Below the pieces are notes generated by a model. It ran no database searches and was not told where the DNA came from. It saw nothing but the letters and a program-made list of their open reading frames with translations. A stretch of 64,000 nt of DNA from Zoroaster sp. YZ-2022 (Eukaryota; Echinodermata; Asteroidea; Forcipulatida; Zoroasteridae). This document shows positions 24,296 to 58,179 of this stretch, piece by piece; the stretch's first letter is position 1, and the number at the start of each line of letters is the position of its first letter. A program made the translations under genes and the position numbers. The stretch is from assembly GCA_029582265.1 (NCBI GenBank), contig CM055816.1:27076366-27140365 (forward strand), given 5' to 3'.

Positions 24296-24759
24296 GGTAC
24301 CCAACTAAATAAACTTCCATAGTAAGCAATTAATTTAAACACAAAATATTCAAAAATCATAAAAAATACTTAAAAAGTCCCACAGTTTTAAAACAAAAGA
24401 AAATGATCGATATATAACCTTTTATTTTCTTTATATTTACTGTCTAAGTCCGGGTTCAGGAGGTTATCCTCATCCCAGCGAAACCACCTTACAGTAGTGA
24501 AAACGTCACACTGAAAAGCAGCCATTTTGGAAAAAGGCCTTACGCTTGAAATCAAATTGGGACCACTTTTTGGGGCCTAGTGTGTTAAGAAATACTCACA
24601 GTTGGAAACCAAGGACCCCAGGTTATGATAGTGGGCCATTTTACACATCCATCAATGAATGAACTCAAATCTTTGTTTTCAAGAAGAATTGAGGGGCATA
24701 CACTTCTATGATAAATAGCTCGGCACTTGAATTCCCTCACTATTTAGTGGGGTGCACCC
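24296..24759 (+). mobile_element. MITE-like element, copy 1 (464 bp)
   Basis: The element starts GGTACCCAACTAAATAAAC and ends TATTTAGTGGGGTGCACC, whose complement is GGTGCACCCCACTAAATA. The ends therefore form a terminal inverted repeat of about 18 bp. The whole 464 bp recurs at 25,955-26,419. There is no coding capacity, and no clear target-site duplication is seen. Confidence 0.75.
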
Positions 24760-25254
24760 TTTAAAGAGATGATTTTTTCTAATTTGACTTGGAACCACAC
24801 TGAGTACATCAGTATGTTGCCGAGATAACATTTCTGAAAAAATTGAAAATATTGCTCCACTGAAAACTGACAGCTTTAAACATACTTTTGTGCATCTATC
24901 CTTATATGTTACATGCACTTTATATAACCATGCATCATGCATGTACGTATCCTGTTCTAGGTTCAGTGTTTTCCTTCCAATGATTCTAAAACAAAATTGG
25001 TTTTGCTCCATGAACATTTCAACAATACTTTTATTCCTTATTATGACAATGAGAGTTTACAGTTACCCTGTTGAGGCGGATCAGATTGACAGAAAGGGGC
25101 CTATATTCATATACAATAAAACATATATCAACTTTCCTCCTCATAATGTGAGACATTATTCTCTTGGTAAAACTTCCTTAAAATGTGACTTGTCTATGGC
25201 ATAAATGGACTACAACCCTGCATCCCCCATATGCAAATACTTCCCCAATAGAGG

Positions 25255-25300
25255 GTATGGGTTAGGGTTAGGTTTAGGTTTTGGGGTTTTGGGGTTCAGG
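25255..25300 (+). repeat. Short telomere-like (TTAGGG)-type patch
   Basis: GGGTTAGGGTTAGG followed by TTTAGGTTTTGGGG. It amounts to two near-perfect units and degenerate neighbours, so this is a minor interstitial patch and not a telomere. Confidence 0.5.
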
Positions 25301-25954
25301 GCAGGAGTTAGGGTAATGCACAAATTTCCTACCGGCTGCCTGGTGATGCTTTGAAGAAAGTTAGAAAATGTCAACAAAGAAGACGAGTGTCTCAAACTAA
25401 CGTTACTCTGGTGGACACTGATCGGACAATATGCATGGAGGAGATTACTTTACCAGCACTCTAAAACTGAATTTATTAATCAAGCAGGTTTTCTTCATAA
25501 GGTGATGCATTTGTTTGCTTTTAAGCCTAATGACAATTGATCACATAATAAATAATTGGTTATAAGTTTACCTCAGTTCCTATGTACCCTAGTCATCAGA
25601 TTATAATAAAATTCTTAATTTAAAGGGAAAGAGCTTGTTTAAAAATTAGTTTCAAAACAATATTGGAAATAGGTAAATGAAGATAAAACAACTTTGTAAA
25701 TGCAAAACAAAATGACATAAAAACATTATCCCAAAGGGTATGTAACTAGGGTATTAATGCCGCCATTTTGTAACTTATTACATACCTTTTATCGTAATTA
25801 TATATAAATCTGTGTTTCATCAATAAGAACTGAAATGAAGGGTATTCAATGAGTAAATTTTCTGTTTATAAATTTTCCATTTATCATCAGGCTTACTGAA
25901 GTTGTAAACAAAAACATCCTCTGTCTCATGGACGCTGCCATTCTGACTATATGA

Positions 25955-26419
25955 GGTGCACCCAACTAAATAAACTTCCATAGTAAAGTGTTAAACACAA
26001 AATATTCAAAAATCGTAAAAAATACTTAAAGTCACAGTTTTAAAACCAAAAGAAAAAATATTGATGATATATAACCTTTTATTTTTCTTACTCTATTTAC
26101 TGTCTAAAGTCCAGGTTCCAGAGTTATCCTCATCCCAATGAAAACCACCACTCTACAGTGGTAAAACGTCACACACTGAAAAGCTTATTTTGAAAAAGGC
26201 CTTGCGCTTGAAATCAAATTAGGACCACTTTTTCCAGGCCTAGTGTGTCCAAAATACTCACAGTTGGAAGCCAAGGACCCCCAGGACATGATGAGTGGGC
26301 CATTTTACTAATCCATCAAATGAATGGGCCTCAAATCTTTGTTTTCAGAAAAATTTGAGGGCATACACTTATGATAAATAACTCGCGCATGAATTCCTCA
26401 CTATTTAGTGGGGGTGCCC
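25955..26419 (+). mobile_element. MITE-like element, copy 2 (465 bp)
   Basis: Starts GGTGCACCCAACTAAATAAA and ends ATTTAGTGGGGGTGCC. It aligns along its full length with 24,296-24,759 in the same orientation, with small indels and roughly 90% identity by eye. A further GGTGCACCCC word at 26,732 may be another fragment of the family. Confidence 0.78.
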
Positions 26420-27897
26420 TGCATGCACATACTTGCACAATGACTTGTACAATGCCAGTGATCGTGCTGGGCGCCTCATGTAATGTATGGTATGACTGTG
26501 TCTCGAACAGTATACGCTGATATTTCATCCCTAGGTGATTCAGGCTTAATCTTAACTGAGAACAATATAACATAATACTCAACAATTGTTTACCAACTGC
26601 CTCAATCACAGTATGGCGTAAATATGGGGGCACGGGGAACATGCCCCAGCCAAGGTCCATTTTATTCAAATTTGAAAAATAGGTCCCTATTTGAGATGGG
26701 TTTAAGTATTGACATGCCCCCCTAGAAAAGAGGTGCACCCCTAGTTCCCCTGAAAATTGGACATAGTTACGCCACTGCTCAATCAGTAAAATTTGACGAT
26801 ACTCCCACTGCTGTGACATTATTCACCTTCGTGTTCTCCATCTTGAATTTGACGTTGAATGAGACACAGCACCTCGTCAGAGGGACTTGACGATAAATCA
26901 TATCTTTTATACACTTTCATAGTAAATTCTACTAAACAAATGTATAATTTTTTTTATAACATAAATAAAGCACACTTTTACGTTGTCACGCACAACCAAT
27001 AATCACACCTGCTGAAGTCATTAACTCTTGTATACACGGCGAAATTGACCACTCAGTGACGATCAATACAATGGTATGAAAAGAGACATCTTGTTAACTT
27101 GTGGATACCCCAAGCTGGGAGGACTGCAAGGATATCACACCTCGAATCGGGGATTGGCGACCGTGGCATTAGACTCACTGGACTCGTTTCCCTTCAGAAT
27201 GAAATAATTATATACAAACATATATTACATAAATTTTGTTTTAATGCATTGCTTTTTTTGTTTCCTAAGAAACAAATCAGCAGTGCCTGTCTGATTACTC
27301 AGTGCTGCAGATCATGTTGTAAATCTTAAAGGGCAGTATCGTCCAACAGGACATGGAATCAGGTGCTTGTTTTCGATTAACTCAGTGACTAAAATAATTT
27401 CCCACATGATAAGGTCATATTGCTGCTACATAAATGAGCCCGGTAATTTGCGGTCACTGTGTTCGCGTAAATTGGACATCGTTCCATGCCCTGACCGAAT
27501 GTCTCTCTGATCGTGACGATACTGCCCCTTTAAAATATAATATGCATAAAGAAGCATAAGCTTTTTACCAATAATCAAATGTATCATTACAGGATATCCT
27601 AAAACCGTCCATGTCTAAGGTTGCAAATTAAAAACAAACTACAACATTTATATCCACAATTTTCGACCATGAATGGTACCCAGTTATTTGTCTAGGTTAT
27701 GTTAAATACGTGGCAGTTTCTAACACGTTACATTGCAGCGACCAAGTTTCACCTTGAGGCATATTCTTAATTGTTATTATATTCATTGTCGTGTAAACAT
27801 TACACTCTATAAATTATGACGTTCAATAACCCAGTGAAGTATAGATTGCCATTTGCAAGAAATATGACAATTTAATTAAGTGTTCATGCTCTACTTG
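26420..27897. other. Non-coding sequence
   Basis: The 162-codon minus frame at 26,331-26,819 crosses the end of the MITE and an unclassified repeat with GGGGCACGGGGAAC. It has no recognisable domain and is not called. Confidence 0.5.
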
Positions 27898-28548
27898 GAT
27901 ACAACCTGTCAATGGTGGACAACCTGTCGTGTGAGTGGGCAACCTGTCAATGAGTGGACAACATCATCAGTAATTAGACAACCTGTCGATAATTGGACAA
28001 CCTGTCAATGAGTGGACAACCTGTCAATGAGTGGACAACCTGTCGGTAGTGGACAACCTGTCGGTAGTGGACAACCTGTCAATGAGTGGACAACCTGTCG
28101 ATAGTGGACAACCTGTCAATGGTGGACAACCTGTCGATGAGTGGACAACCTGTCAATGAGTGGACAACATGTCAATGGTGGACAACCTGTCGATGGTGGA
28201 CAACCTGTCAATATGAGTGGACAACCTGTCAATGGGTGGACAGCCTGTCGTAGGTGGACAACCTGTCAATGGTGGACAACCTGTCGATAGTGGACAACCT
28301 GTGTTATTAGTGGACAACCTGTCAATGAGTGGACAACCTGCCTCGATGAGTGGACAACCTGTCGTGGTGGACAACCTGTCAATGAGTGGACAACCTGTCG
28401 ATGAGTGGACAACCTGTCAGCCGGTGGACAACCTGTCAGCCCAGTGGACAACCTGTGGGTAATTGGACAACCTGTCAATGGTGGACAACCTGTCGATGAG
28501 TGGACAACCTGTCAATGAGTGGACAACCTGTCAATGAGTGGACAACCC
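27898..28548 (+). repeat. Minisatellite, 18-20 bp unit, ~34 copies
   Basis: The unit is GGACAACCTGTCAATGAGT, with variants ending in GATGAGT, GGTAGT, AATGGT or ATAATT. Units follow one another without spacers. The array is open for long stretches in several frames because of its composition; those frames are not genes. Its scrambled counterpart is at 33,661-34,207. Confidence 0.95.
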
Positions 28549-28918
28549 GGGCTGTGCGTTTTCCGGATATTTTGGAACCGGATACGAAATCAAACTTCGG
28601 ATTACCGGATACCCGTTTTCATTTTGTTGAAAACATGCCTCCGGTGGTGTACAAATACATGTACTGTAAATGGTAACAAATTGACTTTTATAATACAGAG
28701 GATGCCATACTATCGATCTTTTCTTTATTGGAGTGTAATATCTTGAATTTAAAGATAATTGTCTGTACAAGTGCATTGTTGAAAGAGTCACAGATTTCTG
28801 TTTGCACTGCTCAAATGTTAAGTCCGAGTTTAAAGTCAGATTTTACGGGTAATTGGAACCGAAAAATGGGACGGGTAATGACCGTTTTCGGTCGGTATCC
28901 GAATGCCAGATACAACCC
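28549..28918. mobile_element. hAT-like MITE nested inside the minisatellite
   Basis: A 370-bp non-repeat segment interrupts the 19-bp array, which resumes at 28,919. Its start, GGGCTGTGCG…TTCCGGATA, and the complement of its end, GGGTTGTATCTGG…TTCGGATA, form imperfect terminal inverted repeats of about 20 bp. Flanking octamers GACAACCC and TACAACCT agree at 6 of 8 positions, but both also resemble the array unit, so the target-site duplication is not decisive. No transposase is present. Confidence 0.6.
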
Positions 28919-28976
28919 TACAACCTGTCAATGAGTGGACAACCTGTCACTGGACAACATGTCAATGAGTGGAGCA
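28919..28976 (+). repeat. Remainder of the 19-bp minisatellite
   Basis: Three further units (ACAACCTGTCAATGAGTGG, then shortened ones) follow the nested element, showing that it split a pre-existing array. Confidence 0.85.
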
Positions 28977-30174
28977 AGTAATCAAGACAGCAAACACATT
29001 CAGTCTTATTGATTCTGAGAACGAACAAACAAAAGTATGAATATTTAATTGATTTGTTTTATTTGGTGTTAATGATGCTTTACTTCGAAAATAAAACTGC
29101 AATACATTCTGACTAAAAGTACAGCATTTGTTTAATGTTTATAATAATGCGATCACATAGCTTGCCATGTTGTTTGTATGCCATTCCAGGTTGGGTGAGA
29201 CACTGAAAGATTGGTAGTTGGGCATTTTTCAGCATAATTTGAGCAGAATTCGGGTTTTAGTGGCATAAAATACGTTTCCCCACGTGGAGGAAATTGGTTG
29301 AATGTTTTTGTGGGTTCATGACAGCCAGGTTATCTCAGCACAAATTTGGTTATTAAATGTCTGGGTTCCGGTTATTCTCCTGTCAATTCTTACTGGACTA
29401 TTAGTATTTTGCACTTAAATTATTTGCAGTCTTTCTACTGATCCTTAATAATTTTGCATGGAATCGGAACAACTCACGCACAGTATACATACATACATAT
29501 ACATGCTCGGAGACTGTTTATCGTGTCCGCAGCCCCTGCATTGACACTGACCGACCTCATATAGTATTTATACCGGTACTTCAAGTCATGTCCAATTGAT
29601 ATATAGTGTGTGCATATACAACATACAAGTAACAATGTAGGGAATGTGGTGCGACCTGGGTTTCTTTATTATTACGCACAGTTGAAAATAATGTATGCAA
29701 AAATATGTAAATTTCAAAAGAATGATTCCATTCCATTCTAAAAATTGTCTAAACGGCCTCCCCGGGTCACCCAACCTCAACCTAGGCAAACATAATACAA
29801 AATCAATTTAAGGTTCAGAAACATTAATTTGTATAAAACTTAAAAACATATTATTACGAAGATTTGAGAATTACAAACCATTTTCGAATAATGTTGGACA
29901 TTTAACCAAAATATTTGAACATTTAAGGAACTTTTGGGCCAATGTTGACATTATTTGTTATATATATATATTTTGCGAACTATCTCCACTGTCTTGTAAC
30001 AGCAATTCTTTTAAGTTTGAAATTGAACGAAATATTACTCCATAAGTATTTTCAATTTCATGACGCAAGTTAATTAAAATAAGAAAAGTAAATCAATAAT
30101 GTTGATTTTGGAAAAGAAATATTTGGTTTAATGCAAAATTGATGAGATAATAGCCCAGTATGAGTATTTCTCCT
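28977..30174. other. Non-coding AT-rich sequence
   Basis: Nothing recognisable apart from a short (TA)n at 29,958-29,970. Open frames are short and lack domains. Confidence 0.5.
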
Positions 30175-30305
30175 TTGTAATTGACTCGTGACTCGGACTC
30201 CAGTTCGAACTCGGACTCGACCCCGTGCCTCAGACTTGGACTTGGACTTGGACTCAACACTGGGGACTCGAACTCGGATTCGGACTCGAGTTTGAGACTC
30301 AAATG
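30175..30305 (+). repeat. Degenerate (GGACTC)n repeat
   Basis: Irregular runs of GACTCG, GAACTCGG and GGACTT. On the minus strand these give a spurious Ser/Glu-rich frame. Resembles the patch at 21,845-21,962. Confidence 0.65.
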
Positions 30306-30702
30306 ACCAGTTAATATGCCATTTATTTATTTTGTCTTCCGTCCGTTTGTAATTGCTGGTATTCGCTTGAATGAACGATGAACGAAACATTTTATATACA
30401 GCACCATGGTTGAATATTTACAGTAAAGCCAGCCTGTTTAGAAACATGAGTTGTGTTTCTTACTCCGTGCTTTAATTACTGCGTCACAAAACATTCTAAA
30501 AGCCAGACCTGTACTGTAACTTTTTCACAGGAAATTCTGAAACAGCGATTTCTGCTAGATTTTTCTCTTTTCTTGAAAACTACTTCTAACTCACCATTTT
30601 TTTGCAATTATTGGTTTCAGCTATTTTCGTGTCAATTCTTAATACTGGACTAGTATACACTTAAATTATTTTGAGTCTTTGAGCCCCTATAATATAAGTG
30701 CT

Positions 30703-31062
30703 GCATGGTTGACGGTTTAGTGCATCGGATTTGTGTTCTGATGGCTGGAGTCGTCAGAATGTGGGTTCAGTCAACCGCGACCGTGGTGCTTGTATCCTTA
30801 ATGAGCAAGACACTTTGCCATAATTACTTCTCTCAACCAGGGCTAAATGGGTACACCTGTGAGGGGCAAGTTGGTTGTTGTGTTTAGCCCTATATATGCG
30901 CTGTAATGGCGGCAACTGAGCTATATACTCCCAGGGGCTGAGATGGTTTCAGAAATGATTTATATGACTATAGCCTGATGACGGGATAATAATATATGCC
31001 AGGCACCAGTTTGGTGGATGCATTATATATAAGTCCACATTGAGTATTATTATTATTATTTT
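30703..31062 (+). mobile_element. tRNA-derived SINE
   Basis: A tRNA-like head carries an A-box-like GTTTAGTGCATCGG (30,715) and a B-box-like GGTTCAGTCAACC (30,764). The body contains AGCAAGACACTTTGCC and AAATGGGTACACCTG, and the tail is a short (ATT)n run (31,044-31,060). This arrangement is that of a polymerase III SINE. The body resembles conserved SINE cores I recall from marine invertebrates, but I could not check this. The counterpart in the scrambled arm (about 31.92-32.15 kb) keeps only GCATCGGAT and ACCTGTGAGGG-type words. Confidence 0.65.
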
Positions 31063-31522
31063 GCATAAAATCGCAACTCTCAACATTGATGGAATCCCTC
31101 ACGCCTAGTATACGTACATGCATACTCGGAGACTATTATCATACACATGACCCTGTATTGACACTGTGACAGACCTCTAGTATTTATTTATATAAGTCAT
31201 AACAATTGATAAGTGTCTGCATATACAACGCGTACTTTAATAGGGAATGCAGGTACTGTTCTTCTGGTTCATTAATAGTTGGTATTTTGTGTTGCATATT
31301 ATTATACTATAGAGTTACAAAGATTGTGTTGACTTTGTCCTTCCACGCAAGGGCAGTTTGCATGCAGTGTACTGTATTTAAGTAGTTCTAAGTTTTCTTT
31401 TAAACTGACTTGAGGACTTTATGAATTGTATATGTTCCATTTTAGGCTATTGTTATGCAAATGGTATGTAAATGTTTTACAGTGTAATGGTTCGTCTTTA
31501 TGTCTGGATGGATGGTTGGTGG

Positions 31523-31533
31523 ACTGTTTCAGT
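31523..31533. other. Axis of the giant palindrome
   Basis: The two arms meet at ACTGTTTCAGT, a 4-bp stem with a 3-base loop. Homology can be followed on both sides to within roughly 100 bases of this point: 31,319-31,420 pairs with 31,628-31,700. There is no obvious unique spacer. Natural inverted duplications often keep a spacer, whereas fold-back molecules do not. Confidence 0.7.
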
Positions 31534-34500
31534 TTGCGTGGTGCTGTGTAGATGAACGGCTAAAGGACAGACTGTTACGTAAAATGATTACGCCTGTGGT
31601 CATCAGATATCCTGATGCATAAATCAGGTCAGTTTAAAGAAACTAGAGCTGCAAATACAATGCACTGCATGAAGGCAGGTCAACACAATCTTCTTAAGCT
31701 ATGGTGTAATAATGTGCTGCGATAAGGCATCACCGTTCCTGAACCGGAAGGTCGCTGCTCGCATTCGATGCGTTGTGCGACATGCCGGTGACATGACCTC
31801 CTCTCGAGATCTATGCAGTGCTGAGATGCCGTGACGTGTGTGATGACGTGCTCGGTGTGTTGCTGCTGGGCGATGAGGATTCCATCAATGTTGAGTTGCG
31901 TTCATGCAAACAATAATGTGTGGACCTGCTTGCATCAAGCTGTGCTCAAACGTGTGTCTACTCATCCGTATAGTCTCAAGTATTCTATCTGAAAATGTCG
32001 CTCAGCACCACTGTCTCGCTAATCAAAAAACGACAACCCTCACAGGTACTGGCCTGGTTGGAAGAAGCGATGAGGTGCTCTGGACTGCTGCGGGCGGTTG
32101 GTCAGGCCCGTGCGGGCGACTCGGCCATCGATCCGATGCGCAAACCAGCGTTCGGCGGGATTATGGTTTTCTGGGTGAGAAAATCAGCGAGCTCGCTGTT
32201 TTCGGGGAATTCTGATGAGGATTACCGGCTGGTCTGCTGCGTGTTTGCAATGACCAAGCAGATGGCTGACCTGCTGTTTCTGAGCGGCTGTCTCTGGGCG
32301 TGTTCGGCCATGGTGCTGTGTCTTTAAAATCGTTTCGTTCATCGTTCGAAATGCTCGCTGACCACAAACGGACGGAAATAATAAATGGCTGTTGGGGCTG
32401 GCTATGTTCAGTCCTCAGGCTGCGAGGTCCGTCAGTTCGAATCTGTGTTAGTCGAAGTCAGGTCAGCACATAGTCGGTCCAGTTAGTCAGTCGAGTCTGA
32501 TCAATACAAGTGGCCTCGTTTATCTGGTAATATCTCATCAATTGCTAGTAAAATGTTTCTTTCGAATCGGCATTGTTGGGTTGCAGTCGGCGGGTGCGTG
32601 AGTGAGGCTCTTGTGGTGTGTTGTTCGGTTATCAGGCAGAAGGATTGGTTTGGTCGAATGGTTCGCAGGCATATGTATATGATGTCGTTGACCCAAAGTT
32701 CGTAAATCGTTCAGATGAGCCACGGGGTTGAAATCGGCGTGCAGTCGAGTGGTTTGAGGCCTCGGAAGTCTCATGTCATGCCGTGTGTTTCGAGACGTTG
32801 CAGTACGTTCGCTCGGGTTGGTGGTGGAATTTGGAATCATTCTTCAATTGCATGTTTGCATGCGACCGGCGTGCTTGTGAAGGCGGGTCTGCCACGTTGA
32901 GAAACAGCGGCAATAATGTGCTGCGCTGTCGGTCGGGCGTGACGAGCAATGCAGAGGTCGATGTGTCGTGCGGTCATGTTCCACGATAAACGTCGGTAGC
33001 CGTATGTGGTGCTCGATCGACTTGGAGAGTTCAGTGGTGGCCAGATTTGTCAGCTGTCATGGTCAAAACGTGTGCTAAAACTCCAGTTCTGCTCAGGTGT
33101 TGAGCGCGGCCTGATGTCTCGCAGCAGGTGCTCTGGCTGACATGGTGGTATGGTCGCGTTATTCGACGTTGACCGTGCGCTGTGCGGTCAAAATGTGCGA
33201 CAGTGGCGTCATTGACGCCAAATGGGCGATCGATTAAATATTCATGCTGAACTGTTCGTTCTCCGAGATCAGACTGCTGTGTTCTGCTCGCGACCGGTTG
33301 TTGATCGGGACCGCTCCGCTCGTGACAGGTTATGAGGCTGCAATCGAGTGTCAGATCCAGGCCGAGGCGGAATCGTACCGGTTCACCACTCGATTTCCCA
33401 TGCCGTGAAACTGTTTGCAAACTTCCGGACAACGTTGAGGCGGTGCTGGCTGAAAATCAGCGATCTTCGGCAATGCGCTTGGCCGGACTTCGGCTGGTGC
33501 AGGTGCGCTCAATGAAAGAAAGATCGATAGTGCTCGGTATCCTCTAATTATAAAAGGTCAATTCATTACAGCTGCGTGACTATACACCGCCGGAGGCATA
33601 TTTTCAGCAAAAATGAAAACAGGCCATCCGAGTGATTTCAGGTATCCCGGTTCCAAAAATCCGAAACGCAACCATTGTCACTCGTTGACGGGTTGTCACT
33701 CGCCGACGAGTTATCCTCGTGACGGTTAATCGCTCGTGTTGGTTCTCGCTCATCGACGAGGTTATCGCGTTGACAGGTTCACTGGGCAGGTTGTCCGCTC
33801 ATCGCGGGTGTCCGCATTGTTGGGTGATCACTCGTGGGGCCAATCGCCATCGCTTTGGTATCGCGGTGATCCTCATTGAACAGATTGTCCGCTCGTCGGC
33901 AGAATATCGCTCGATGACGGGTTGATCCCTTCAGGCGGAACCATCCCACTCATTGACAGGTATCGCTCATTGGCTGGTTGACTCCCACTGCATCGCGGGT
34001 TATTCACTTCGTGTTATGTTAATCACTCATTGACGGGTATCCGCATCGACTGGTGTCGTGCTGGGTGTCACTCATCATTTGAGTTATCCGCTCTCCGCTC
34101 ATTGATGGATATCCCTCGTGTTTGGGTGGAGTTGTCCGCGTGTTTGGGTAACACTCATCGACGGAACCACTCATTAAATATTCCTCATTGACAGGTGTCA
34201 CTCATCATTTTGGGTGTCCTCGTCGACGGAGATGGCATCCAGTGAGCGTGAAGTGTTGCAGGTGTCGTGACTGCTGCGGGTGACGTCTGCTCTTTCAGGT
34301 GGATGATGAATGTCGCCAATTTTATGGGTGTGGGCAGTGAATAACGATTGGGCTGACTCGTGGCGGGTCATGCAAATATAACGTTGAAATCCGCCGCATT
34401 GTATAACCTGGACAGGCTGGGTGCCGGACTGCATCAGCCGGTTCGTTGCAACTGACGCAAGACATGTTCGTTGATGTGCTTTACGTTTATGCGGTATTAT

Positions 34501-37500
34501 ATTTTAGGGGGCGATCGTCACGATCGGGCGGGCGTTCGGCTGGCGTAGGATCGATAATCTGTTGTGAACGGTGACGCAGGTGCGGCTCATTGGCTGGCCA
34601 GCTGGCGGTATTTTCGGTCACTGAAGTGTCGGCTGGCTGCTCGATCGCTCTCCTGATCGTGTCTGCCCATGCCTTGCGCCGATCACGGTATGTTGGTGAT
34701 CGAATTTCGGGCCTGCGGTTGTTCTTAGAGGCTCACTTCAATACTGTCGCAAAATTTATGCTCGTTGCATATAAATATTTCGTTCTGACACGAAGTCATG
34801 CCGTTATGATCCCGATTGGTGTGGGCGATCGCAACTGAGGTCACAGGATTGGCTGAATAAACTGCGCTGACAAATCAGTGTTTGCGCAGGCTGCGATGCA
34901 GTGATGCGTGTTTTAAAAAGCGAAGACTGCTTATCGTATAAAAATTATACATTGTTTAGTGAAATTGCTGTAGTGTATAAGGCTGTGGTTGATCCCGGTG
35001 CTGTGTTCGGCGATCGATCAGATGGTGAAGGTGAATGCGGCGGTGGGGTATCGTCAGGGTACTGGAGAGCGATGGCGTAACTATGGTCCGGTGAAGTGCA
35101 CCTCTTCTGGGGGTATCATCTTTCGTCTCGTTCAAAATTCAGATGAGGAAACCCGCCGTTTACGCCACTGTGATTGGGCGGTTGAAGGTGAAGCAATTGT
35201 TGGTGTTATGTTTATGTTGTTTAACACCGGTTAAGATTAGCCTGAATCTTCGTGAGGATAGTATCGCTCGTTCGTTTGATCATCGCTGCCGCTTGATATG
35301 CGTTATGCGCCAACAATGACTACCGACTTTCATCTGAAATCGTACAATGTGCGTGCGGGTGCGCCCCGCTGGGTGGTGAGAATTCATGCGCCCGGCATGA
35401 GGGTGTGCCCTCAGTTTTTCGGCGGATTGACCGTTGGTGGTTGTGAAATATTTTATATAACCTCAGAGAGTTTCAACGTGATATTTGGACATAGGCACGA
35501 AAAATGATTCTTCGTTGCCGCAAGGTGGCTGCTTTCGGTGGACGTTTTCGCGAGGCGGTTTCTGGGACGAGATGACTTCGACGGACTTAACGGTAAATGA
35601 AGGAAGTGAATTGTCGTCAATATTTTCAACGATTTCGGGTTTCGTGTTTTGCGGAACACCAGTGTTTGTGTTGGCTGCTGTTTGTGGTTGGTGCGCCTGT
35701 AGTCGGGAGATGGCGTGATCATGAACGGAGGATGTTTTGTTTAATAGTAACGATGATGAAGGTTATAAACGAAAAATTACTCCGTTGAACTCTGCTTCTG
35801 GCTCGGTGCTGATGAATGTTTGAGACGTTACAGGGGTTTGTTAAGAGCCGTAGCCAATAAGTTACAAAATGTGCCTCTGGTGCCATGCTATCGCTACGAG
35901 ATAATGTTTCGCGTCATTTTGTTGCGTTACAAAGAGACCAGCACAGCTCGTTTGCCTGTTGTGTTGCAGGCTCGGTGCAGTGGCTCTTCACACAGGTGGT
36001 TTATTAATCTGGGCCAGGGCACATGGGGAACACAGTGGGCATGACAGTCGGTTTGATATGTGGTGTCGGTTGTCGTTAGTTTTGATAACCCATCGTGCGT
36101 CGCGTAATAAATTCGGTTGCAAGTAACTGTTAGTAATCTCCATGGCGCTCGTCCGATTTGTCGACGTCTGAAGTAACGTTGGTTGGACACTCTTCTTTGT
36201 TGACGATTTTAACGTGTGCGCCTGCCCGGACAGGCTTAGCTAAACAACCTAACCTGCCTCTTCGTTGAAGAAGAGGCTGTTGCATGTGAGGATGCGAAGG
36301 TTGTAATCCATGGAACAGAATGCATTTTGGTTTGCCAGGCTGTGTTCATGAAAAGCGGATGCTCGTGTGTGTAGGCCTGGATGCCAGGCGGCTTTGTGGC
36401 TCTCGCTGTGTCGCCAACAAGGAATAAAAAAGCTGTTGACGAAAATGTTCGTGAGTGCTGGTGTGTTTTAAATCATTGAGCTGCTAATCCCAGATAGTGG
36501 GCGTGCATGCATGATGCGCGGATGCTCACTGAGTGCGTGACATGCTGAATGGTGCAATGGCTGTCGATGCGGCGGCATGCTCAGTGGTTCAGGTCAGAAA
36601 TGTAAAGGGTGCGCCGTGGTGGGGGCGCCGGCTGTTGTCATCAAAGTCGCTGTGCCTCGGAATTTTCTGAAAAACTGGTTGAGGCCAGCCGGATGACCCG
36701 CGTCGCTGGCAGGGGTCCTGTTTCCAACGGTATTTTGAACCTGAAAAAAGGTGGTCTGGTGATTTCAACGTAAAGACCGCACCAAATAACTTTCTTTCGG
36801 TCGGACGTTCGCACTGGCGGAAAGATGATTTCGACGGGATGAAGATAACTTCCTGAAACGGACTGGCGATAATGGGAAAACAAGGTTAACATATCGTCGT
36901 ATTTTCTTTGATTTTAAAACGTGGGTTTTAAAGTATTTTTTACGGTGCGAATGTTTGTGTTGCTATATGGAGTTTGACGGTGCACCATCGTCGCCGTGGG
37001 CGGTTGCCTCACCGCCGACAAGATCAAATCGGATCAGTTTTCCGTCATTCAACAGGCTGTTATGTGAGCACCAGTTTTGTGGGCATGTGCGATTTGATTC
37101 CGCTTTGCCGCGCCCAGACTCGGGCCTGAATCGAATGTTGACCATGGTGCTGCTGTTCGTGCGCGGCGGGTGGGCTCAAATCGTTTTTGTCAGACGAGCG
37201 CACTCCGCTGACTCGCGCGCTGACTGTCGTGTGGTGCGACTCGGTCACGTTTTCAATCAGGTGGCCCTTGCGTTACGCCGTGTCGGCGACGCGATCGTTT
37301 CAATCGAATGACCGCCACGTTATCAACGTGCACGCAACTGGACAATTTGTCGGTCTGGCGGCTGCGTCGCGGGATGCTGTTCTGAAGCAAAATCGCGATG
37401 AGCCTGCTGTGAACAGCGTGTGTTTCAATTCAATACATTCAGCTCTTAAATGACGATCGGAAAACCGTGCGACGCTGATAATGCACCGCGGGCGGCTCAG

Positions 37501-40500
37501 CACGACGCTTATGCGCTGTCAGCTCAGATATGGTTCGCCTTTCTTTCGGAACAACAGGCAACCTGAACTTTATATAAATTTATAACTCTGATTAAAACGT
37601 TCTTTAATCGACCGGAGATCGCTGTTATGGGCCTGACGTGGGCCGGTGGGTGAACTCCCGTAGACCTGGTATAGTACCATTGATGTGAGAGGCAAAATGC
37701 CGTTAAAGTGAGGACGCTGATTGCCTGATGGATGAGCCGTTGTTATGCCTCTGGTATCAGGTGCCTGACAGCGTTTACGGGTTGGGTGAAATGGGGCCCG
37801 CCTGTCGCGATGGGCGGTGTGCAGCTGGTGGGTGGGCGTTGCCAACGCCTGGGCTGGTCAGTTTTTGCCAGTGGGGGTGCGCGAACTGAAACGAGGGCGG
37901 GTGCACCCGGCTTGTTCTGTTCAGCGTAGTGGACGGGTCGTGACTGCGTGGTGAGGTCGATGTCCAGTGGTGCAGTGATTGTGAGCTTCGGCGGATGGCT
38001 GTCGTGAAGATAAACGCGATGTGATGAATTCCGTACGACGATACGAAACAAACGCGGTCTCTTCAATTTTCGTGATTGGTTTGGTGCTGAAATGGAGACG
38101 AGAGAATTTTTGAGAACCCCGTTCACTTATTGACTGTTCAACGTATAAAGTTGTGGGTTCATAAACAATTTTTGTTCGGGCATGACTAATGTGAACGAAG
38201 CCAAATCATGTTGGGTTTGTTGTTGGCGGTCGGCAACATGACGAGCTGTGGGAGTGAAGGATGAGGAGGATGATGTGGGTGCCAAGCCTGGGTAAATTTG
38301 ACATATGTGGGTAATCGAGTAGCCTGTTTTGTTGAAATGCTGCTCGTGTGTTTTAGTAATGCGCCGTAGCTGTTGGTTCAACACGTAGTATTTTTGTATT
38401 TTCAAGGACAGCTCGTTACGCTATGGTGGGGACGTATGGCGACGTTACGGGCACGGTAATGTTATTCTAACGGTGGCGCGAGCAGTATCGGGGGCTATTT
38501 TGCTACATCCCGTCGTGATGAGGGTCCGGGCGAGGCAATGTGCAATATTGCAACGGCGATAAACGGTATAAAGTGTTAACAGTCGGGGATTTCTTCGACC
38601 ACGCTGTGTAATATGCGGCTGTGGTGGATGGTCAATTCTGGCGTTCTGGCTCTCCGGAAGCAACCAACAACCTCTACCTGAGCAAAACGCTAAATATATC
38701 ATTCGGGTTAAAGCGTGTTAACAAAAACGAAAACGATATGCGGAAGATTCAGTGACCATTTCAAACAATGTTGAGGAGAACGGAACGTGAACCATGTCGG
38801 TATTTCGGTTAACGAACCTTGACATATGTATGGTTACTGGATGAAATTGCTCGAGTGACTCGACTCGGTCCGGACTGAACGCCGTGAACTCGTGACTCGG
38901 GTCAGACCGCCAGTCAGGACTCTTGCTAACTCAGACTGAGGATCGCCATTATCATGTTTATCTGCTGACAATTAATGAATTTGTTTCGCTGATTCCCAGC
39001 AGTCAGTTACAAAATGGTGGTTTCGTCAATAAATTCAACAACGCTCTGGCTGGTGGCGTAAAATACAGGCGTCGTGATTGCGATCGGTTAAATGTGGACT
39101 TCTTTGAGCAAGGCAAAATGACCGTGTGTTCATGTTATGTTTTACAGCGACGCGTCTTTTCGTGGTGGCATGGTGGTGGGGCAATGGAATTGTTGTCGTG
39201 TCGTTAAATAAAACTCTTACCGACCGCTGGCCTGGTTTCAGCTCTGGGCTGCAGGTAGGTTGATGCTATAGTACAAATCCTCCTGACTTCCGGGAAAAAT
39301 TGTCTGAATTACTCCGTCGTTCGCTGTTCAGGCAGCGCGCCGGTTGATGATTTTTTCGCGAGGATGTTGTGTTTGGTACCCGGCGCTGGGTGATGTTCAA
39401 AATCAGTGATCGTGTAGAATGTCTTGTTTGGACGGACGTTGTGAACGACGACCGTGGCGCATCGTTAATCTGGAAACAAATCATGGTCAGATTCTGTGTG
39501 GTGTTTCGTTCGGTACGCGAATGACAGACTGTTGATTGCGGGCCGTTATGATTGATGACCGGTGTTTGTTTCATGTTCGATGAAGCGGGTACGGAATGGG
39601 GAGGTGCGAGAGCGGGGATGAAGGAAGGGAAGATGAATGTGTCGGGCTGGGGAACCCCAGCCGTCAATAATCCATCATGCAAGGTGAAAATGACGTCAGC
39701 ATGACTGGTGTTACGACAGGCCGAAGGATTATCGTTTTCACGTATTGACCTACTGCTTCCATAACTGAAAAATCGTCTGTTTACCGTGTTGTTTACAATG
39801 GTAAAATTATTTTGGCGTGACCTGATTCATTAGACTACTGTTCGAGATAATGAAGGGTTATGGGAGCAGGCAATGGGGTCCACGATGCTAACCTCTTCGC
39901 AGATCTTTAACGTCGTGAGCAGCCCGCGCTTCAGTGATCCTGACCATTCCGCCTTCAAGTATGTGTGCAAACATGGTTCCGGCGCCGGTCGCACTGTTTC
40001 GGGGTAAAATAACCGCGGACCGGCATCGCTCGGAGATATATCGCAAAAATGACACAAAATAGTTGTTGGTATATGATGAGATCGGACGTACGGGTCTATA
40101 AAGACGCCTCATATTTTTTTGCCGTGCTGCTGGCCTCGGCTTTAAGGCTGTTGTGCAATCGCCAGTAACGATAAATACGGGCCTGACCAGGTTACTGATC
40201 GCTGTTCGGCCGTCTTCCTGAATGCGGAACGTTTGAGTGGTTGCTCGTTCGACTGTTTTTGTATTTGAGGCCGCAAAAATGCTGATAATGATCGTTTTCT
40301 TTGTTCGCTGGCAGATCGGACAGTGGTGTGAGCAACCACCGGATGACGTATTTCGGTTGTCGGTTGCAGCGTGAGCAAGCGAATGATCTGCATGATATCG
40401 TGAAGGGAACGATAACTCATGTTTCCATTCGTTACCTACGCTTCAGCTCAACTGCGACTCTGAACAGGACCAGTTTGTGATCGCTGCTCAACGGGATTGC

Positions 40501-41320
40501 GTGCAATTACCGTCCGTTCTGGCAATCGATCGATCGGTTGATGATTGCCTTTCCGTCGATGACTGCGATCGAGACGTGCGTCACGCAAACGCGGTATGGT
40601 TTATAAACAATGAATATGAACTGGACAAAATACTGAACGCGGTACCAGCGCAAAATAAAGGAAAAGAGATGAAGGTTTGACGATTGTCGTCGGTTTATGA
40701 CGTTCGGCGCTCGTTGGTTGATCAGTTACAGCCAGACGTTTCCGGTGGTGTCGGTGGCCATCGACGCCCGCGTCATCGCTCGGTTACGGGTCATTGACCG
40801 CCTGAGAATGTTTCTGAAACGATCATGTTACCAGACGTTTCGAGAACTATGCAGATGTGATTCAATAACTGTGCGATAAACGTGAGAATGTCTGCAATGT
40901 TTCACGTGTGCGGGCTGCGGCGGGTGGTCGCGGGGTGTTCCGCCTTCCAGACTGTTGCGACTGTCGTGGTTCAGCCTGTTGACTGACATGAATATGAACT
41001 GGTTTGCCCTCGTGTTCGGCCAGCGACAGCCGGTGATCGGGCCCATCTGGCAAAGATCAACTGTGCCTCGGTGTTTCCCAATGACGGGTAAAATGGTTAC
41101 CATAATCTCGGTCGTAACAAAATGTCGCAGATGTGATCCTGCGGATATGAGTTATGAACTGCTGTAATCTTCACATATTGCTGATAACACTGAAGCATCG
41201 GCGTCTGCAATCCTGTTTTATTCTTTAAAATCAAAGTGGCTGTCGTTCAAATTCACCATGAAGATGATTCAGGGTCTGTTGTTATTTCGATGCCCTTGTT
41301 CTTTCGCCTGGGATGTGCTA
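31528..41320 (-). repeat. Inner right palindrome arm, scrambled and GC-shifted copy of 18.7-31.5 kb
   Basis: This stretch is about half G+C, against about a third elsewhere, and is rich in CG and in words such as GATCG, GCTGG and CCGGC. Reverse-complemented, it still aligns in order with 18,700-31,527. Shared words include CAACATTGATGGAATCC (31,881 against 31,083), GATGAACGAAACATT-like sequence (32,335 against 30,369), TGCCTCCGG (33,590 against 28,635) and TTGATTTTAAAGAAT (41,221 against 18,790). It is 9.8 kb against 12.8 kb in the partner, so it has lost length as well as identity. Stop codons are depleted, which produces many spurious open frames of 60-138 codons. I see no independent gene here. 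It is best explained as low-accuracy sequence, not as an island of foreign DNA. Confidence 0.85.
33661..34207 (-). repeat. Degraded reverse-complement copy of the 19-bp minisatellite
   Basis: Repeated words such as CTCATTGACGGGT, CTCGTTGACGGGTTGTC and CTCATTGACAGGT are the reverse complement of the unit at 27,898-28,548 (GGACAACCTGTCAATGAGT). The array is about 545 bp against 651 bp in the partner, and its units are corrupted irregularly. Because the unit is known, this is the clearest place to see how the inner right arm has been altered. Confidence 0.85.
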
Positions 41321-42183
41321 CCAAAATGTCTCTGAAGTGGTGTGCTCTTCACCGTGGTAGTCGATGAAACTCACCCAAATTGATCTTTGGGAATCTGGTT
41401 ATGGGACGTACTACCGTGTCTCTAGAAAGGTATTGTGCTCTTCACCGTGGTAGTCGATGAAACTCATCCAAATTGATCTTTGGGACATCCTGAATAACAT
41501 GGGACGTACTACAAAATGTCTCTAAGTAGGTTTTGTGCTTCACCATGGTAGTCGATGAAACTCACCCAAATTGGTCTTTAGGTTGTCTGAATAACATTTT
41601 GGCTACGGGGTTTGTACATATGGGTTGATTCTACAATACGATGTTCTTTGTTTCCGTATGTTTGAATCGTTTGAGAGTCGTTGGCACACATTTAATGGAA
41701 GGGCATTAACCGATTCATTACATCAATTGTCTCAAACGTGTGAGGACAAATGATAAATTTGTAGTACAATGATTACAGTTCATGCGTTTAAGTTTATTTC
41801 AATATGTCGTAAATACTAAACAAGAATCCAGTGTCCCAATAATTATCCAATATACATGTGGCCGGGGGTCACACAGGGGACCCTGTTCGTTTTCATCGAA
41901 CACTTCATTGCAATTTGTACTATTGTGGTAATATCTGTACAGATAATACTGCAAACAATAATGTCCAATTTCGAACAATAACAAACACCTCGTGATCTCC
42001 TGCCACCTACTGTCCCAAAAAGTCACAGTCTCATCTACCCACCCATCTGTCGATCGGGTCTTGCCTAAAATAACGTTTGGACAGTTAGTACTACTTGGAC
42101 GCCTAAGAACACACAATGCAACTTTTGTGCCTAATGACTACGAATTAATGCGCCTTTTCCGTTTATTTCAATATATCATAATT

Positions 42184-42232
42184 TCTCATGAGGACGATCA
42201 GAGCATACTGATCAAACGTCAGTTGTAACCTC
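42184..42232 (+). ncRNA. Decayed hammerhead-like motif, right-arm copy
   Basis: CATGAGGACGATCA, GAGCATAC, TGATCAAAC, then GTCAGTTGTAACCTC. Stem II is intact. The core has CATGA where CTGATGA is expected and AAAC where GAAAC is expected. It complements the left copy at 17,717-17,772: each arm keeps different parts of the ancestral core. Confidence 0.4.
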
Positions 42233-43599
42233 AGTTCTTTCAGTTAGTACTACTCAATTGAAATTTCACATGGTGTCACCGCAATTAGTCTTACCTATAT
42301 CATAACTTTCTTAACACTAAACAAAGAACTTGGCGTCAATTTAATATTATCAATATCCCGAAACCCATGTCAGCGTTTTAAAGCTTAACCTCTGTTTTAT
42401 ATTTATAACTGTTACCACACAAACATTACAAAGAGATGATGTTTACTTGTTATAAAAGCCAAAACAGACGACACAGGGTCAAAGTGGAGATCCACTCCTG
42501 AAATCACCAAACTTAATTGTAAAATGGCTATTTTATTCTCATATTTCTAAAACCTGTGTGTTCCGCTTTTGTGTAGTCGTGGTCACGTGTCCATCCTACC
42601 TTCCTTGTGAATCTCTGCACCTGAGAATCAGTGTTGTGATCCAAGACCACATTGAAAAAGATAATTCTTTCTCAGTGGTACAATATAAACTGCAGGTATT
42701 ATGCAGTCACTGGCTTAATACCTTTCTATTTATATGCAGTAACTATTGGATTATAGTGCCCTGTTGGGCCAGTGTATGCTCGTGGGTATTATTTACAGTC
42801 ACTGGCGGTTCTTCTGATTGAGCAGACTCGACTGAGATTAGGAAGCCGTTAAATCTCATCATTTGACACAGTGCAGTACATTATGCACACAAAATGTACA
42901 GTGTAGTGCATTATGCACCTGGCTACATAAACCTAATACATTAGCCTGTCTACTGTGCAAACAGTTCGAAATGCACATCAGTATACACATGCCACATTGT
43001 TATTGATCTGTATACAGTGTTTAACTTCGGGACAGCGCACCGAATATGTGTGCCGAATAAATCGGTGCAGGATGGGGATATCGTGTTAAAATGCGCACTA
43101 CGGACAACAGCCTTCGTCAAAGGTATTATATATGGCCAAGGCTACGTGTGTGCTGAATTTCTCGGGCAAATCACGCTCACTGCTGCGATTAAATTCATAG
43201 TTGTGTCATTGATGAGAATCTTCCACTTCAGTCGTAGACCTTCTAGACATATCCTTAAAGACTCACAATACGATAAGGAACATGCTCCCATAAGACAAGA
43301 ACGTAAAGATTGCAATTGAATCTCCACACACACATCCAGTGTTCAATACAGCTTCTTGTCTGGTCACTGTATACATAATGTTTATGTGGTGGGGCTACAG
43401 TATAATAGGGTCAGTGGGCTGACTCCAGACGACCATGACATACAAGACTGACAGGGTGCTGACTAAATACGATCGATAGTTGAGTAACTGGTCAATAACA
43501 ACAGTACTATTGTCAATAAGGATTGGTATTACGTTAGATGATGACGAAAAACCTGGTCAATTTTTTAGTCTGCCGTCTGTCCGTTGGCTGTTCGTCTGT

Positions 43600-44110
43600 C
43601 CCTAATTATGGATAGCATAATAATACTAATAACAATAAGATTTGGCGCGCACCTTATCCATGCTGGGCGCTCAAGGCGCGAAACAAAAGATAAAACATGA
43701 ATACAAACAATATACAATGATAGCATAGGAAAAAATTATGGACCGAGATGTATAACACATGCAATTAATGACCTACATCATCTTTGAAGAATTATGACAT
43801 AAGATGAGTTTTAATGACGACTTAAATCTAGTATACTATGACAAATTTGAGTTGGTTGGAAGATGATTCCAGAGTCTCAGGCCGCGACAGAAAAATACCT
43901 ATCACCCAGTTCCGTTTTAAGTTGGTTCCTTTAGGAGTGACATGTTGCTGGAGAGCAAATTGCGTGAATATTGAGATACGAGAGTTGTGTGATGGGTTCT
44001 TTTCAGAAACTGTACATAGCTTCGCGATACTTGAGATAAACATGGTGTTACCTGAAACCGAAACGACCTCGATATTCCACCATGCAAGAAAAATTGCCAT
44101 TTATAATTTA
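43600..44110 (-). pseudogene. Fragment of a non-LTR retroelement 3' end (right copy)
   Basis: Partner of 15,760-16,300. On the minus strand a frame reads WVIGIFLSRPETLESSSNQL before a stop, and FKSSLKTHLM follows in another frame. It is disrupted in both arms. Confidence 0.4.
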
Positions 44111-44261
44111 TTTTGGTGATTTTCAAAAGGGCGGGTTACTCTGACCCCTGTGTCGTCTGTTTATGAAGCTTTAACTAGTAACATCTTGAAATATCTCTTT
44201 GAAATGTTTGTGTGGCAACAATTATAAATGAAAACAGTAAATGTGCTGAAAAGAAGAACCA

Positions 44262-44375
44262 GGTATAGGAATACTTCATATAGAATACTTCATGTAGGAA
44301 TACTTCATATGGGAATACTTCATATAGAATAGCATATGGGAATACTTCATAGGAATACTTCATATGGGAATACTT
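44262..44375 (-). repeat. 14-15 bp minisatellite, expanded in the right arm only
   Basis: About seven units of GGAATACTTCATATG with small changes. The left arm at 15,505-15,545 has barely two (ATGAAGTATTCCCATATTCC). This is a length difference between the arms that must have arisen after they separated. Confidence 0.8.
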
Positions 44376-44517
44376 CACTTACAAAAGAAGAAATTGTGTA
44401 CATGGACCTTATTTTTCTGACATGTGTGAGAATAATAAACCTTGGGTGATTTCAAAAGAAGAGTGGATTCCTCTTTGATCGCCATATTTGTCTGTTTTTA
44501 TATGATTCAATAACACG

Positions 44518-44752
44518 TCATATTATAACTAGCATATAATTATATAAAACATAATAGCTAGCATATAGTATATACAACATAACTGGCATATAGTATATAA
44601 CATAATAACTAGCATATAGTATATAAAACGCAATAACTAGCATATAGTATATAAAACATAATAACTAGCATATAGTATATAAAACATAATAACTAGCATA
44701 TAGTATATAAAACATAATAACTAGCATATAGTATATAAAACATAATTATATT
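44518..44752 (-). repeat. AT-rich minisatellite, right-arm copy
   Basis: Units of CTAGCATATAGTATATAAAACATAATAA, the reverse complement of the array at 15,118-15,360, with similar unit number but different unit variants. Confidence 0.85.
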
Positions 44753-45869
44753 CAATTAGATGAAACCCTATTCGCCCCAACCAAATTTTTGAGACGATTA
44801 CTCTCAAACTGTGTCACCTTGAGGCACAGCCAAAATGTTCAGGATGTCAAAATATCACGTTGTGAGAGTTTCATCGACTACCACGGTGAAAAGCACGAAA
44901 CTCACTCTAGCACTACCGTAAGTCGTGATGAAAAATGGAAATTGATTTTGAAATTTGAGTGCACGGTATAGCTTGAAGTTCTGCAGTCAGCAACTATCTG
45001 TCAAATCTTGTGTCTACAGAGACAGATTACAACTAGGCCTATATTTTTTCAACACATGAAAATTCTGGGAAATGATCCTATGGATATCCCCCGGTCCAAA
45101 GCTGATAAGGGGACGTATCCCCATCCCCCGGGATTTACGCCTGCGTACTCTAGAGACATTTAGGTAGTACGTCCCATGGTCTAATGTAGACCTTCATCAC
45201 ACTGTATCACCACCATCTTTTGTCAGGTTAATACCTGTGTACTGAGGACCAGACTGGTTTCCTTCGAGCCTTACATGTATTTGTGTTGAAGAACACAAAC
45301 ATGGTTGTACTTTGATAAAGATTTAATAGCTACCATGCGACAGAAGCATCATGATGGTTCCTGGCCTGTGTAATTTGCCTAGGAGTTTTTATAACTGGAA
45401 ATTTATTCCTAATTCTCGTCCATCTTTCAATCCTTCATATCCCCCCAAAAAAAAAACACCATTGTATGGTGTATGCTGTAAACCCAGGCTAAAGTCATAT
45501 TCAACAAGTGAAGATGAACCTGACAGCAGATCCTGGGTGCCCGATGGGAGGAGGGGGGGGACATCAAACTTGATGGGCTAAACAAAAGGAAACATAACAT
45601 ACGTCCCATGAGACCCCGCCACATACCCCAGACACAGTCACCATGACATCATCACTGGCTGGCTGGCCAAGTTCACGTGCAGTTGATGATCATTGCCCTG
45701 CTGTGCATGTTCACGACTTGTGCGTGATGATCGACTTTCATCACTGTACTACAAATCAGGAAATGCTAATGCTGACCACAGAGTTGATCCTGACACCATG
45801 ACCCCAATCCCATTTGAACTTAGCGCATTTGGAAAGTTATGCAGTTTACGTTATGCATAGCATCCACCA

Positions 45870-46076
45870 TGCTTATGGCAGTTGTACATGTACGACTACC
45901 TCGTGGTACATGTACATTACTCTAGTGCAGTTATATATACAGGTACAGCTCCATGTGTGGTACTTTATGGTATAGAGTGGATATACGACGAGAACCACCA
46001 CTGCTATATAACAGCTGTTGTGTTAGTTGTATCAAGGGTCAAATACGCTTGACTCTCTCTGTATGGACGGTCCTAA
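45870..46076 (-). repeat. 220-bp direct repeat, copy 2 (right arm)
   Basis: Reverse-complement partner of 13,719-13,947, ending at GGACGGTCCTAA. Confidence 0.75.
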
Positions 46077-46939
46077 CCACACATTGTTTTTTATTATAAA
46101 TAATAAACATAAGGTTTAATAGCCTAAACATATCTTCACGATATGCAAGAACGTTAATTCTAGTATCACCGTGGACAAATGGATTAAAACTATTCCAAGA
46201 AGTGCGGTAGAATGAGTGTGACGACTAATTATAAAGATTCGAACTTTGTCAAACTCGGCACGAAAGGAAGAAAATTTATACAAAAAAAATATATAGAGGG
46301 TTGTGGATGCTAGATGTATTGTATGATTTATTATAAGAATTTTTTAAAACCGATTAAGAAGGATTAAGAGAAAGCAGTTGGAAAAATGATAAAATACATT
46401 ATTTTTAAGTTGCAGGTATTTATTTCTGAATAACATAAAAATATAAAAATAAAAAAATAAAAAAATAAAATATGACATGGGGTCAAGAAAAAATAATATT
46501 GATGTTTATATTGATTAAAAAGAGTTACGAAACGAAATTGGATACAATTGTGTTATTAGTAAAAGTAATACAAAATGTTGATGAAGTTTATATAAGAAAT
46601 AAAACAGAGTAGAGTGGGTGCCAGTTAGTGTTGGTAAATGAAACTACAACAAGAATTAAATGAAAGGTAATAGAAAAGATGGTGTGATTGCTGAATTCGG
46701 GTATAGTGACGATGACAGCGTATGAGTGGCGCGCACGCAGTAATCATTATGTTGTATTGACTGTGTGTGTACACATAACCACTCTGTATGCAGGATGCAT
46801 AGTACAAAACGTCGCGCGCGTTAATAAACTATATGGACACACCAAATAATGGACAAGATGCTTATAGTACGAAAGTACCCACAAAAATGGCTAAAAAGTA
46901 CAAAACAAAAAACTACCAAGACGAGCAATAAAAACGGCT

Positions 46940-47152
46940 TGTAAAGTTGTACATGTACATGTGCTGTAGGTGACTACCTCGTGGTACATGGGCCATTACT
47001 CTAGATGCAGATTATATTATGCAGGTACAGCTCCATGTATTAGTACTTTAGTATAGTGGATATACGACGAGAACCACCACTGCTATAACAGCTGTTAGGC
47101 TGTATCCAAGATCCAAGGTCAAATACACTCGTCTCTGTATGGACGGTCCTAA
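46940..47152 (-). repeat. 220-bp direct repeat, copy 1 (right arm)
   Basis: Reverse-complement partner of 12,625-12,845. The spacing between the two copies is preserved in this arm. Confidence 0.75.
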
Positions 47153-48191
47153 CCACATGTACAAAAAGGTGTATTTTTAATCTGCTAATTAATACAATCT
47201 AAAATGTTGTGATTAGTTAAGTTATTGTGAGGTCGGTAACTTTGATGAAATTTAAATTTTATGAATTTTTTGTTTAAAATTAAAAATGTTTCCTAAACTT
47301 TCATGAAAGTAAACCATCGAGAATAACAGATTTTTGCGGATCGAAAATCATGTAGAATGGCCCTAGAGTACATGAGCTAATAATACTAGCAGTACAAGTA
47401 CGGCATATATACATCATAAGTAAACACAGACTTAACAATTTGAGTACACAACATTTGAAAAAAGCATGAACAATTCTAGACTTAGTTCGACTGACTCTGA
47501 CAACACACTGTAGACTACAACGTAGTGTACTCACCAACTTGCTCCGTACTCTTCGGAGTGTTCAGTCCGTCTTTTTTTCCTGATATATTCCCAGCTTTGC
47601 CCGTAAGTTAGAACATGGGTTAGAAGTCATCCTAGAATTTTCAAAACGGAAGAAACCTTTTACAAAAATTGTGCCAGCGTAAAAACAGAATGAAAGGCTT
47701 ACAGTTACACTACGGAAGGTCGACAGTGCCTGCTGGTGGCGCGTGTCAAACGATCAACCATGTACATGTCAAACGAATCGTTTGATTGGCTAGCACATAG
47801 CTATCCTTATGAATATTCATATTTCCAGATGTTGTCCGGGGATTTCCCTTTTAAAGTGACATCAATATTGACCCTGTTTTCGTATTCCATGTACATGTAC
47901 ATGGCAGACGTATTGAATTACCCAGTAGCTTAAGGTTGGAATATGGCACTAGTTTGACCGTGGCTTGAACCCAGACCAGCTGTAATTGCGGCAGTCATTA
48001 ACGTGTACTGATCAAAGTTGACCTAGATTGTTTCGCTCACAGTGGAGTTCCAAATAAAGTTGCGAAATAGGTGGCGCTGTTTGGAAGTTTATAATTTTTA
48101 TACACTCAAGTTGTCACCCCATGGCAAATTATGATCAATTAATTGTTATTATGTTATATTGGTATTTTCTGTGCATTATATTACGGAGAGA

Positions 48192-48408
48192 TTTTCCTGA
48201 AATTGATACTTTAAGAATACTTAAATTATTATATCTAACAAATATTATATCTAACAAATATTATATCTAACAAGTATCGAAATGAGTTTCACTGACAGTC
48301 TGGGCTGTGTGTGCTCTGTATATAGCTTTCAAATATAAGCAATTATACAAATGAAATACAAACAATTGAAAATAAAATCCATCACATGTTTGTAGTTGTA
48401 TTAGTGCA
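48192..48408. repeat. Right-arm-specific 217-bp segment
   Basis: In the left arm the flanks are joined at about 11,533 (GGAGAG next to AAGTGTAAG). The segment has three tandem copies of AATATTATATCTAACA (48,226-48,275). It could be an insertion on the right or a deletion on the left. Its outer edge (TTAGTGCAGCGTAAG) resembles the equivalent place in unit A (52,564), which favours a left deletion. Confidence 0.75.
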
Positions 48409-58170: not shown

Positions 58171-58179
58171 CCCGTAATG

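Follow-up and report, generated by a model that had tools for sequence, protein, structure and literature searches.

A probable nanopore fold-back artefact joins two inverted arms in the chromosome-level assembly of the starfish Zoroaster

The stretch of DNA analysed here (the window, 64,000 nucleotides, C1:27,076,366-27,140,365) belongs to the genome of Zoroaster sp. YZ-2022, and coordinates below are positions in the window unless C1 (CM055816.1) is named. C1 has 107,181,989 bases, and the genome has 1,001,958,528 bases in 616 pieces. The published assembly of Zoroaster cf. ophiactis (1,002.0 Mb, 616 scaffolds), a species for which a mean heterozygosity of 0.32% is given, was built with wtdbg2 from nanopore data of approximately 60 Gb (PromethION, LSK109), polished in three NextPolish rounds using Illumina reads, and scaffolded with Hi-C; the only polishing in that description of the pipeline is Illumina-based, and long-read polishing is not mentioned there (PMC10394057). 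The same paper names the read sets SRR22953576-SRR22953579 and SRR24759671, deposited under BioProject PRJNA891479. The window contains two palindromic arms, which in the BLAST comparison extend from -3,307, beyond the window, to 31,527 on the left and from 31,528 to 60,151 on the right. On the plus strand, a polished left outer arm (1-12,040, continuing to -3,307 outside the window) is followed by a left inner arm (12,041-31,561) of unpolished nanopore sequence resembling a single read, which would be the first pass of a fold-back. A turn point at 31,561/31,562 was placed by alignment, with a precision limited by read error. Beyond it, on the minus strand, lie what we take to be a misread return strand (31,562-41,320; low identity, loss of bases, A called as G or dropped, raised G+C), its continuation (41,321-47,680), which has recovered to ordinary raw-read quality and is also unpolished, and a polished right outer arm (47,681-60,151), which is a diverged copy of the left outer arm.

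The two outer arms are 95-97% identical over the BLAST stretches and differ by symmetric substitutions, at approximately 1.5-2.6% in four stretches. The left outer arm carries a reverse transcriptase stretch (4,423-5,963) and a piggyBac-like DDE_Tnp_1_7 transposase (within 7,790-9,967), both recognized with Pfam, that have no counterpart in the right outer arm. The symmetric divergence together with these two left-only transposon stretches indicates that the outer arms are real DNA and distinct copies, either two haplotypes (alleles) or two paralogues. An uninterrupted open reading frame of 363 amino acids on the minus strand (58,180-59,271) encodes PAN and fibrinogen C-terminal domains and is ficolin-like. 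Its product is 82% identical to one unnamed protein, has many named starfish relatives, which are also the closest named ones among the best 120 of 593 matches, and looks like a member of an expanded starfish lectin family. Between 62,124 and 63,182 there is a tandem array of units of approximately 78 nt that are 95-96% alike. Furthermore, a second, older inverted relation, in roughly reverse order and at approximately 77-95% identity, connects positions -42,033 to 11,394 with positions 101,905 to 123,782, which suggests that this region has been inverted or duplicated repeatedly.

The original prediction had described the block at 31,528-41,320 as a scrambled, GC-shifted and shortened copy of the inner left arm that retained its order, and the alignments bore this out. 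The block has 9,793 nt, while its left counterpart has 12,832 nt (a ratio of 0.76, or 24% shorter), and a global alignment of its reverse complement with 18,696-31,527 scored 2730, compared with 979-1034 for the same alignment with six dinucleotide shuffles. Control scores were 1042 for the unreversed block, 1002 for the block reversed only, and 927 for another 12.8 kb. When determined per 500 bases, the identity of the block to the left arm was 0.47-0.66, and since 0.517 was reached even after mononucleotide shuffling of the whole stretch, identity alone is no proof of homology, which is proved instead by the order and the shared words. The block and the straight copy of the locus described below had 63 16-mers in common in inverted orientation, 62 of which were collinear, and none on the same strand. 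When 1 kb of the block (31,600-32,600) was used as the query of a genome-wide search that skipped very common words, no match other than the query itself was found. The sequence at 31,562-41,320 is the adjoining left sequence misread in reverse complement, with collinearity kept and bases lost.

A genome-wide search with 25,501-31,527 gave at least 41 matches (40 of 17,396 candidates were scored), and among the matches listed the one full-length match besides the window was C1:4,579,793-4,586,026, at 90%. The straight copy of which this is a part, C1:4,566,690-4,586,058, aligns to 12,469-31,561, and it extends past the turn locus without folding back. Its contig starts at 4,566,690 after a gap of 500 N, within approximately 430 nt of the start of the raw stretch in the window. 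The straight copy and the raw stretch of the window lie on one scaffold at a distance of 22.5 Mb, and one of the two placements may be wrong. In a three-way alignment of the left arm, the right arm and the straight copy (6,240 columns, a ragged last bin of 335 columns being omitted), 58 differences were unique to the straight copy, 613 to the left arm and 572 to the right arm. Therefore, the left arm and the right arm at 41.3-47.3 kb each contain errors not shared with the other sequences, at approximately 9-10%, and the straight copy is the only accurate one of the three.

With the straight copy as the yardstick, the error was approximately 9-10% on the left (12,469-31,561) and approximately 9%, which is ordinary for raw reads, at 41,320-47,680. 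When the left arm was compared with the right arm, identity was 99% in the step at 11,530-12,029, 81-90% in 12 of 13 500-nt steps and 74% in one beyond left 12,041/right 47,681, and 47-66% beyond left 18,700-18,800/right 41,200-41,300 (both approximate), with 68% in the step that crosses this last boundary. We infer from the left-right boundary that the raw stretch begins at 12,041 on the left, because the straight copy covers the left arm only from 12,469 onwards. The block ends with a sharp recovery at approximately 41,170-41,320, which corresponds to approximately 18.7-18.8 kb on the left. Thus, the abrupt end noted earlier at 41,320 is real, but the sequence from there to 47,680 is unpolished raw sequence as well, and the low quality that had been ascribed to the right block alone, and that does apply to it, extends to the left inner arm (12,469-31,561), at the error given above. 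As a consequence, accurate short reads should match C1:4.567-4.586 Mb rather than 18.7-31.5 kb, where the original prediction had expected their matches. Accuracy, which a genuine genomic palindrome would be expected to show throughout, was found in the outer arms and in neither inner arm. The style of indels shifts at approximately 23.1 kb on the left and approximately 45.0 kb on the right, and the sequence may derive from more than one read. In addition, 12,469-15,000 is rich in insertions with very few substitutions, in contrast to the remaining raw sequence, and is perhaps from another read.

The block had been taken to begin at 31,528, but the turn itself lies at 31,561/31,562, from where the alignment is degraded in the very next bases, and approximately 65 nt of the locus (C1:4,585,994-4,586,058) are unduplicated, being absent from the return strand. 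The second segment lies on the opposite strand, with C1:4,586,058 followed by 4,585,993, and thus within the 200 bp limit used for foldback reads. No straight continuation was found after 31,561 (local score 25, compared with a mean of 20.2 and a maximum of 30 for 200 shuffles), and no 8-mer pair that could represent a short inverted repeat seeding the turn was found within C1:4,585,960-4,586,159. The turn is located at 55% of the raw stretch 12,041-47,680, or at 49% if the read is taken as 18,700-45,000, the ends of the read being assumed.

Real mutations hit duplex DNA, and A<->G and C<->T changes are therefore expected to be about equal. The two kinds of change were counted in the reading direction, with seven polished homologous pairs as controls. 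The ratio of A<->G to C<->T was 243:79 in the left inner arm (p 1.5e-20) and 96:24 in the right raw arm at 41,220-47,286 (p 2.2e-11), while all seven polished control pairs were symmetric (p 0.18-1). Both excesses hold for the plus direction of the window, even though the two arms represent opposite strands of a single locus. The A<->G excess was present in seven of eight sub-segments, the exception being 12,469-15,000 (3:7). Confusion tables against the straight copy were nearly alike for the left (23.7-31.6 kb) and right (41.3-47.3 kb) raw arms: A to G 2.6% and 3.0%, G to A 3.9% and 3.6%, C to T 1.7% and 1.4%, respectively, and T to C 0.6% in both. We read this A<->G bias in two opposed arms as a one-directional reading error, a pattern that evolution does not produce.

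Within the block, the A of the straight copy, taken as the true base, appeared as G in 22.9% of aligned cases and was missing in 36.6%. The base kept best was G, with 19.5% dropped; these rates are approximate, as an alignment at low identity inflates matches. An alignment to the wrong strand gave 13.3% for A to G and 40.9% for dropped A, and hence the A-to-G excess is informative, while the loss of A alone is uninformative. For 13,058 template bases (C1:4,572,936-4,585,993) only 9,659 bases were called (31,562-41,220), approximately 26% fewer. The loss was found in all 13 kilobases, with 602-831 bases called per 1,000 template bases and the minimum in the kilobase beside the turn, which includes the 65 nt that are not repeated. 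The A-to-G calls, the preferential retention of G and the loss of bases lead to the higher G+C and the shortening of the block.

The composition of the block differs accordingly from that of the left arm in G+C (0.50 compared with 0.37) and also in the observed/expected ratio of CpG (1.22 compared with 0.66). Stop codons per codon (plus/minus strand) were 0.045/0.035 in the block and 0.058/0.056 on the left, where 0.049/0.043 and 0.068/0.067, respectively, were expected from composition; the depletion of stop codons that had been noted is thus present, at the level that base composition predicts. The strand skew of the block (GC +0.16, AT -0.13) lies outside the values seen in 22 background pieces, each 10 kb long. 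With a word model of E. coli built from two 50-kb stretches, the log-odds of E. coli versus starfish words was +0.042 per base in the block, which is closer to E. coli, compared with a mean of -0.085 (s.d. 0.0115, maximum -0.066) in the same 22 pieces. Under the E. coli model, the block scored above its own 2-let and 3-let shuffles with z of 9.6 and 7.3, compared with 0.2-2.9 for four other stretches of the window and 21-24 for real E. coli, which was part of the training set, and so the bacterial-looking words are real. Under the starfish model, the block likewise exceeded its shuffled versions, with z of 4.4 and 3.6, a remnant of starfish words that is expected from a misread starfish template, unlike pure base-caller noise. 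The words had been attributed to a base caller or polisher biased to bacterial sequence. A base caller presumably falling back on bacterial training data would be sufficient, and a polisher is not needed, as the polishing described for this assembly used Illumina reads (PMC10394057).

These results point to the origin of the block that the original prediction had proposed. The nanopore, wtdbg2 and NextPolish pipeline (PMC10394057), the strand-specific errors, and the way in which bases are missing from the junction onwards, of a kind described by Spealman et al. 2020 for nanopore inverted duplications (PMC7229812), make it very probable that the block arose as an artefact of nanopore fold-back sequencing and assembly, most likely from a single fold-back molecule. 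A nanopore molecule would have been read on the plus strand through the locus at C1:4.567-4.586 Mb to the turn at 31,561, and then back on the complementary strand. The returning strand would have paired with the strand that had already been translocated and would have been pulled through the pore too fast, so that approximately one base in four was missed, A was often reported as G, and the base caller put in words characteristic of the data on which it had been trained, until calling returned to normal raw quality at approximately 41,320. The assembler may then have joined the two polished outer arms via a path of low support, and Illumina polishing would have been unable to repair the raw stretch, because accurate reads fit the straight copy better. 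For such a course there are reported precedents. Spealman et al. found low-quality, shortened sequence after the inverted junction in nanopore reads, attributed it to the paired strand pulling the DNA through the pore, and described a recovery over a distance about equal to that read ahead of the junction (PMC7229812). A study of rDNA (Genome Res. 2021) reported artefactual palindromic nanopore reads with a drop in quality just past the inversion (PMC8559705), and Heinz et al. 2026 reported that foldback reads make up approximately 0.55-0.6% of ONT genomic reads and can tangle assembly graphs (PMC12870357). Some observations do not fit this course in every detail. If one read covered 12,041-47,680, the length rule predicts poor calls to approximately 47,680, against the recovery at 41,320; for the rule to hold, the bad read would need to have started near 18,700. 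The changes in indel style and the missing bias at 12,469-15,000 also count against a single read. Furthermore, in the eight raw signals (direct cDNA) inspected by Heinz et al. the turn was undisturbed, which counts against the proposed mechanism (PMC12870357).

Alternatively, a real inverted duplication, either in the germline of one haplotype or somatic, might exist at this locus, with its second arm misread by the same effect in the pore because the assembly took in reads of one direction only. Spealman et al. describe this very failure for real inverted duplications (PMC7229812), the outer arms consist of real DNA that is inverted and has diverged, and the return strand past the misreading has normal raw quality, as it would for a read starting at approximately 18.7 kb in a longer palindrome. 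If this were the case, a large inverted duplication would lie beside a starfish fibrinogen-lectin gene, hidden by nanopore misreading of its second arm. However, both inner arms are of single-read quality despite approximately 60 Gb of nanopore reads for a 1-Gb genome (approximately 60-fold), and a real palindrome should yield many good reads that start within the right arm. The accurate straight copy also continues past the turn, and we consider a real duplication quite unlikely.

Explanations in which the block itself is inherited DNA fare worse. Mutation, gene conversion and C-to-T hypermutation are rejected on account of the strand-specific A<->G bias and the loss of bases, as the original prediction, which had held them inadequate, supposed. 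More generally, an inverted copy that is genuine and ancient, and that mutation, gene conversion or a repeat-induced mutation process had scrambled, would explain the collinear homology across 12.8 kb, but it is hard to reconcile with an A<->G bias that follows the reading direction in both opposed arms and is found in none of the seven polished pairs, with a rise in G+C accompanied by the loss of a quarter of the bases, with the abrupt tiers, or with an A-to-G change on one strand; we give it practically no credence. Insertion of, or contamination by, bacterial or phage DNA appears just as improbable. It would account for the bacterial-looking words, but no match was found for the part of the block at 31,562-35,500 among 20,395 E. 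coli records, or for the part at 31,562-39,500 among 50,697 phage records, and no Pfam domain was found in the three block open reading frames scanned, out of five of at least 110 amino acids. Moreover, the block is collinear with starfish DNA. The block is therefore not a biological feature; as a fold-back artefact it is of a known kind and well explained.

The fold-back artefact proposed here would represent a known nanopore failure that survived into a chromosome-level reference, in which two arms are connected by approximately 35 kb of sequence that is raw or false. Testing for strand bias, with polished pairs for comparison, was enough to recognise it in the assembly itself, with no need for reads. 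The locus also warns against inferring inversions in gene families, G+C islands or bacterial transfer here.

Compared with the reported cases, the block shows both similarities and differences. Heinz et al. likewise describe a second segment on the opposite strand close to the turn, here approximately 65 nt from it and in their definition up to 200 bp, although the eight direct-cDNA reads inspected there had no disturbance of the signal, whereas here the return strand is heavily misread (PMC12870357). The palindromic reads of the rDNA study share the drop in quality just past the inversion; those were judged as individual rDNA reads and the palindrome was absent from other molecules, while the present case is known from an assembly alone (PMC8559705). 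Spealman et al. studied real yeast and human junctions with phred and current data, in contrast to the consensus of a published assembly used here, and the two cases are alike in the onset at the junction, the wrong and missing bases, the shortened second strand and the later recovery (PMC7229812).
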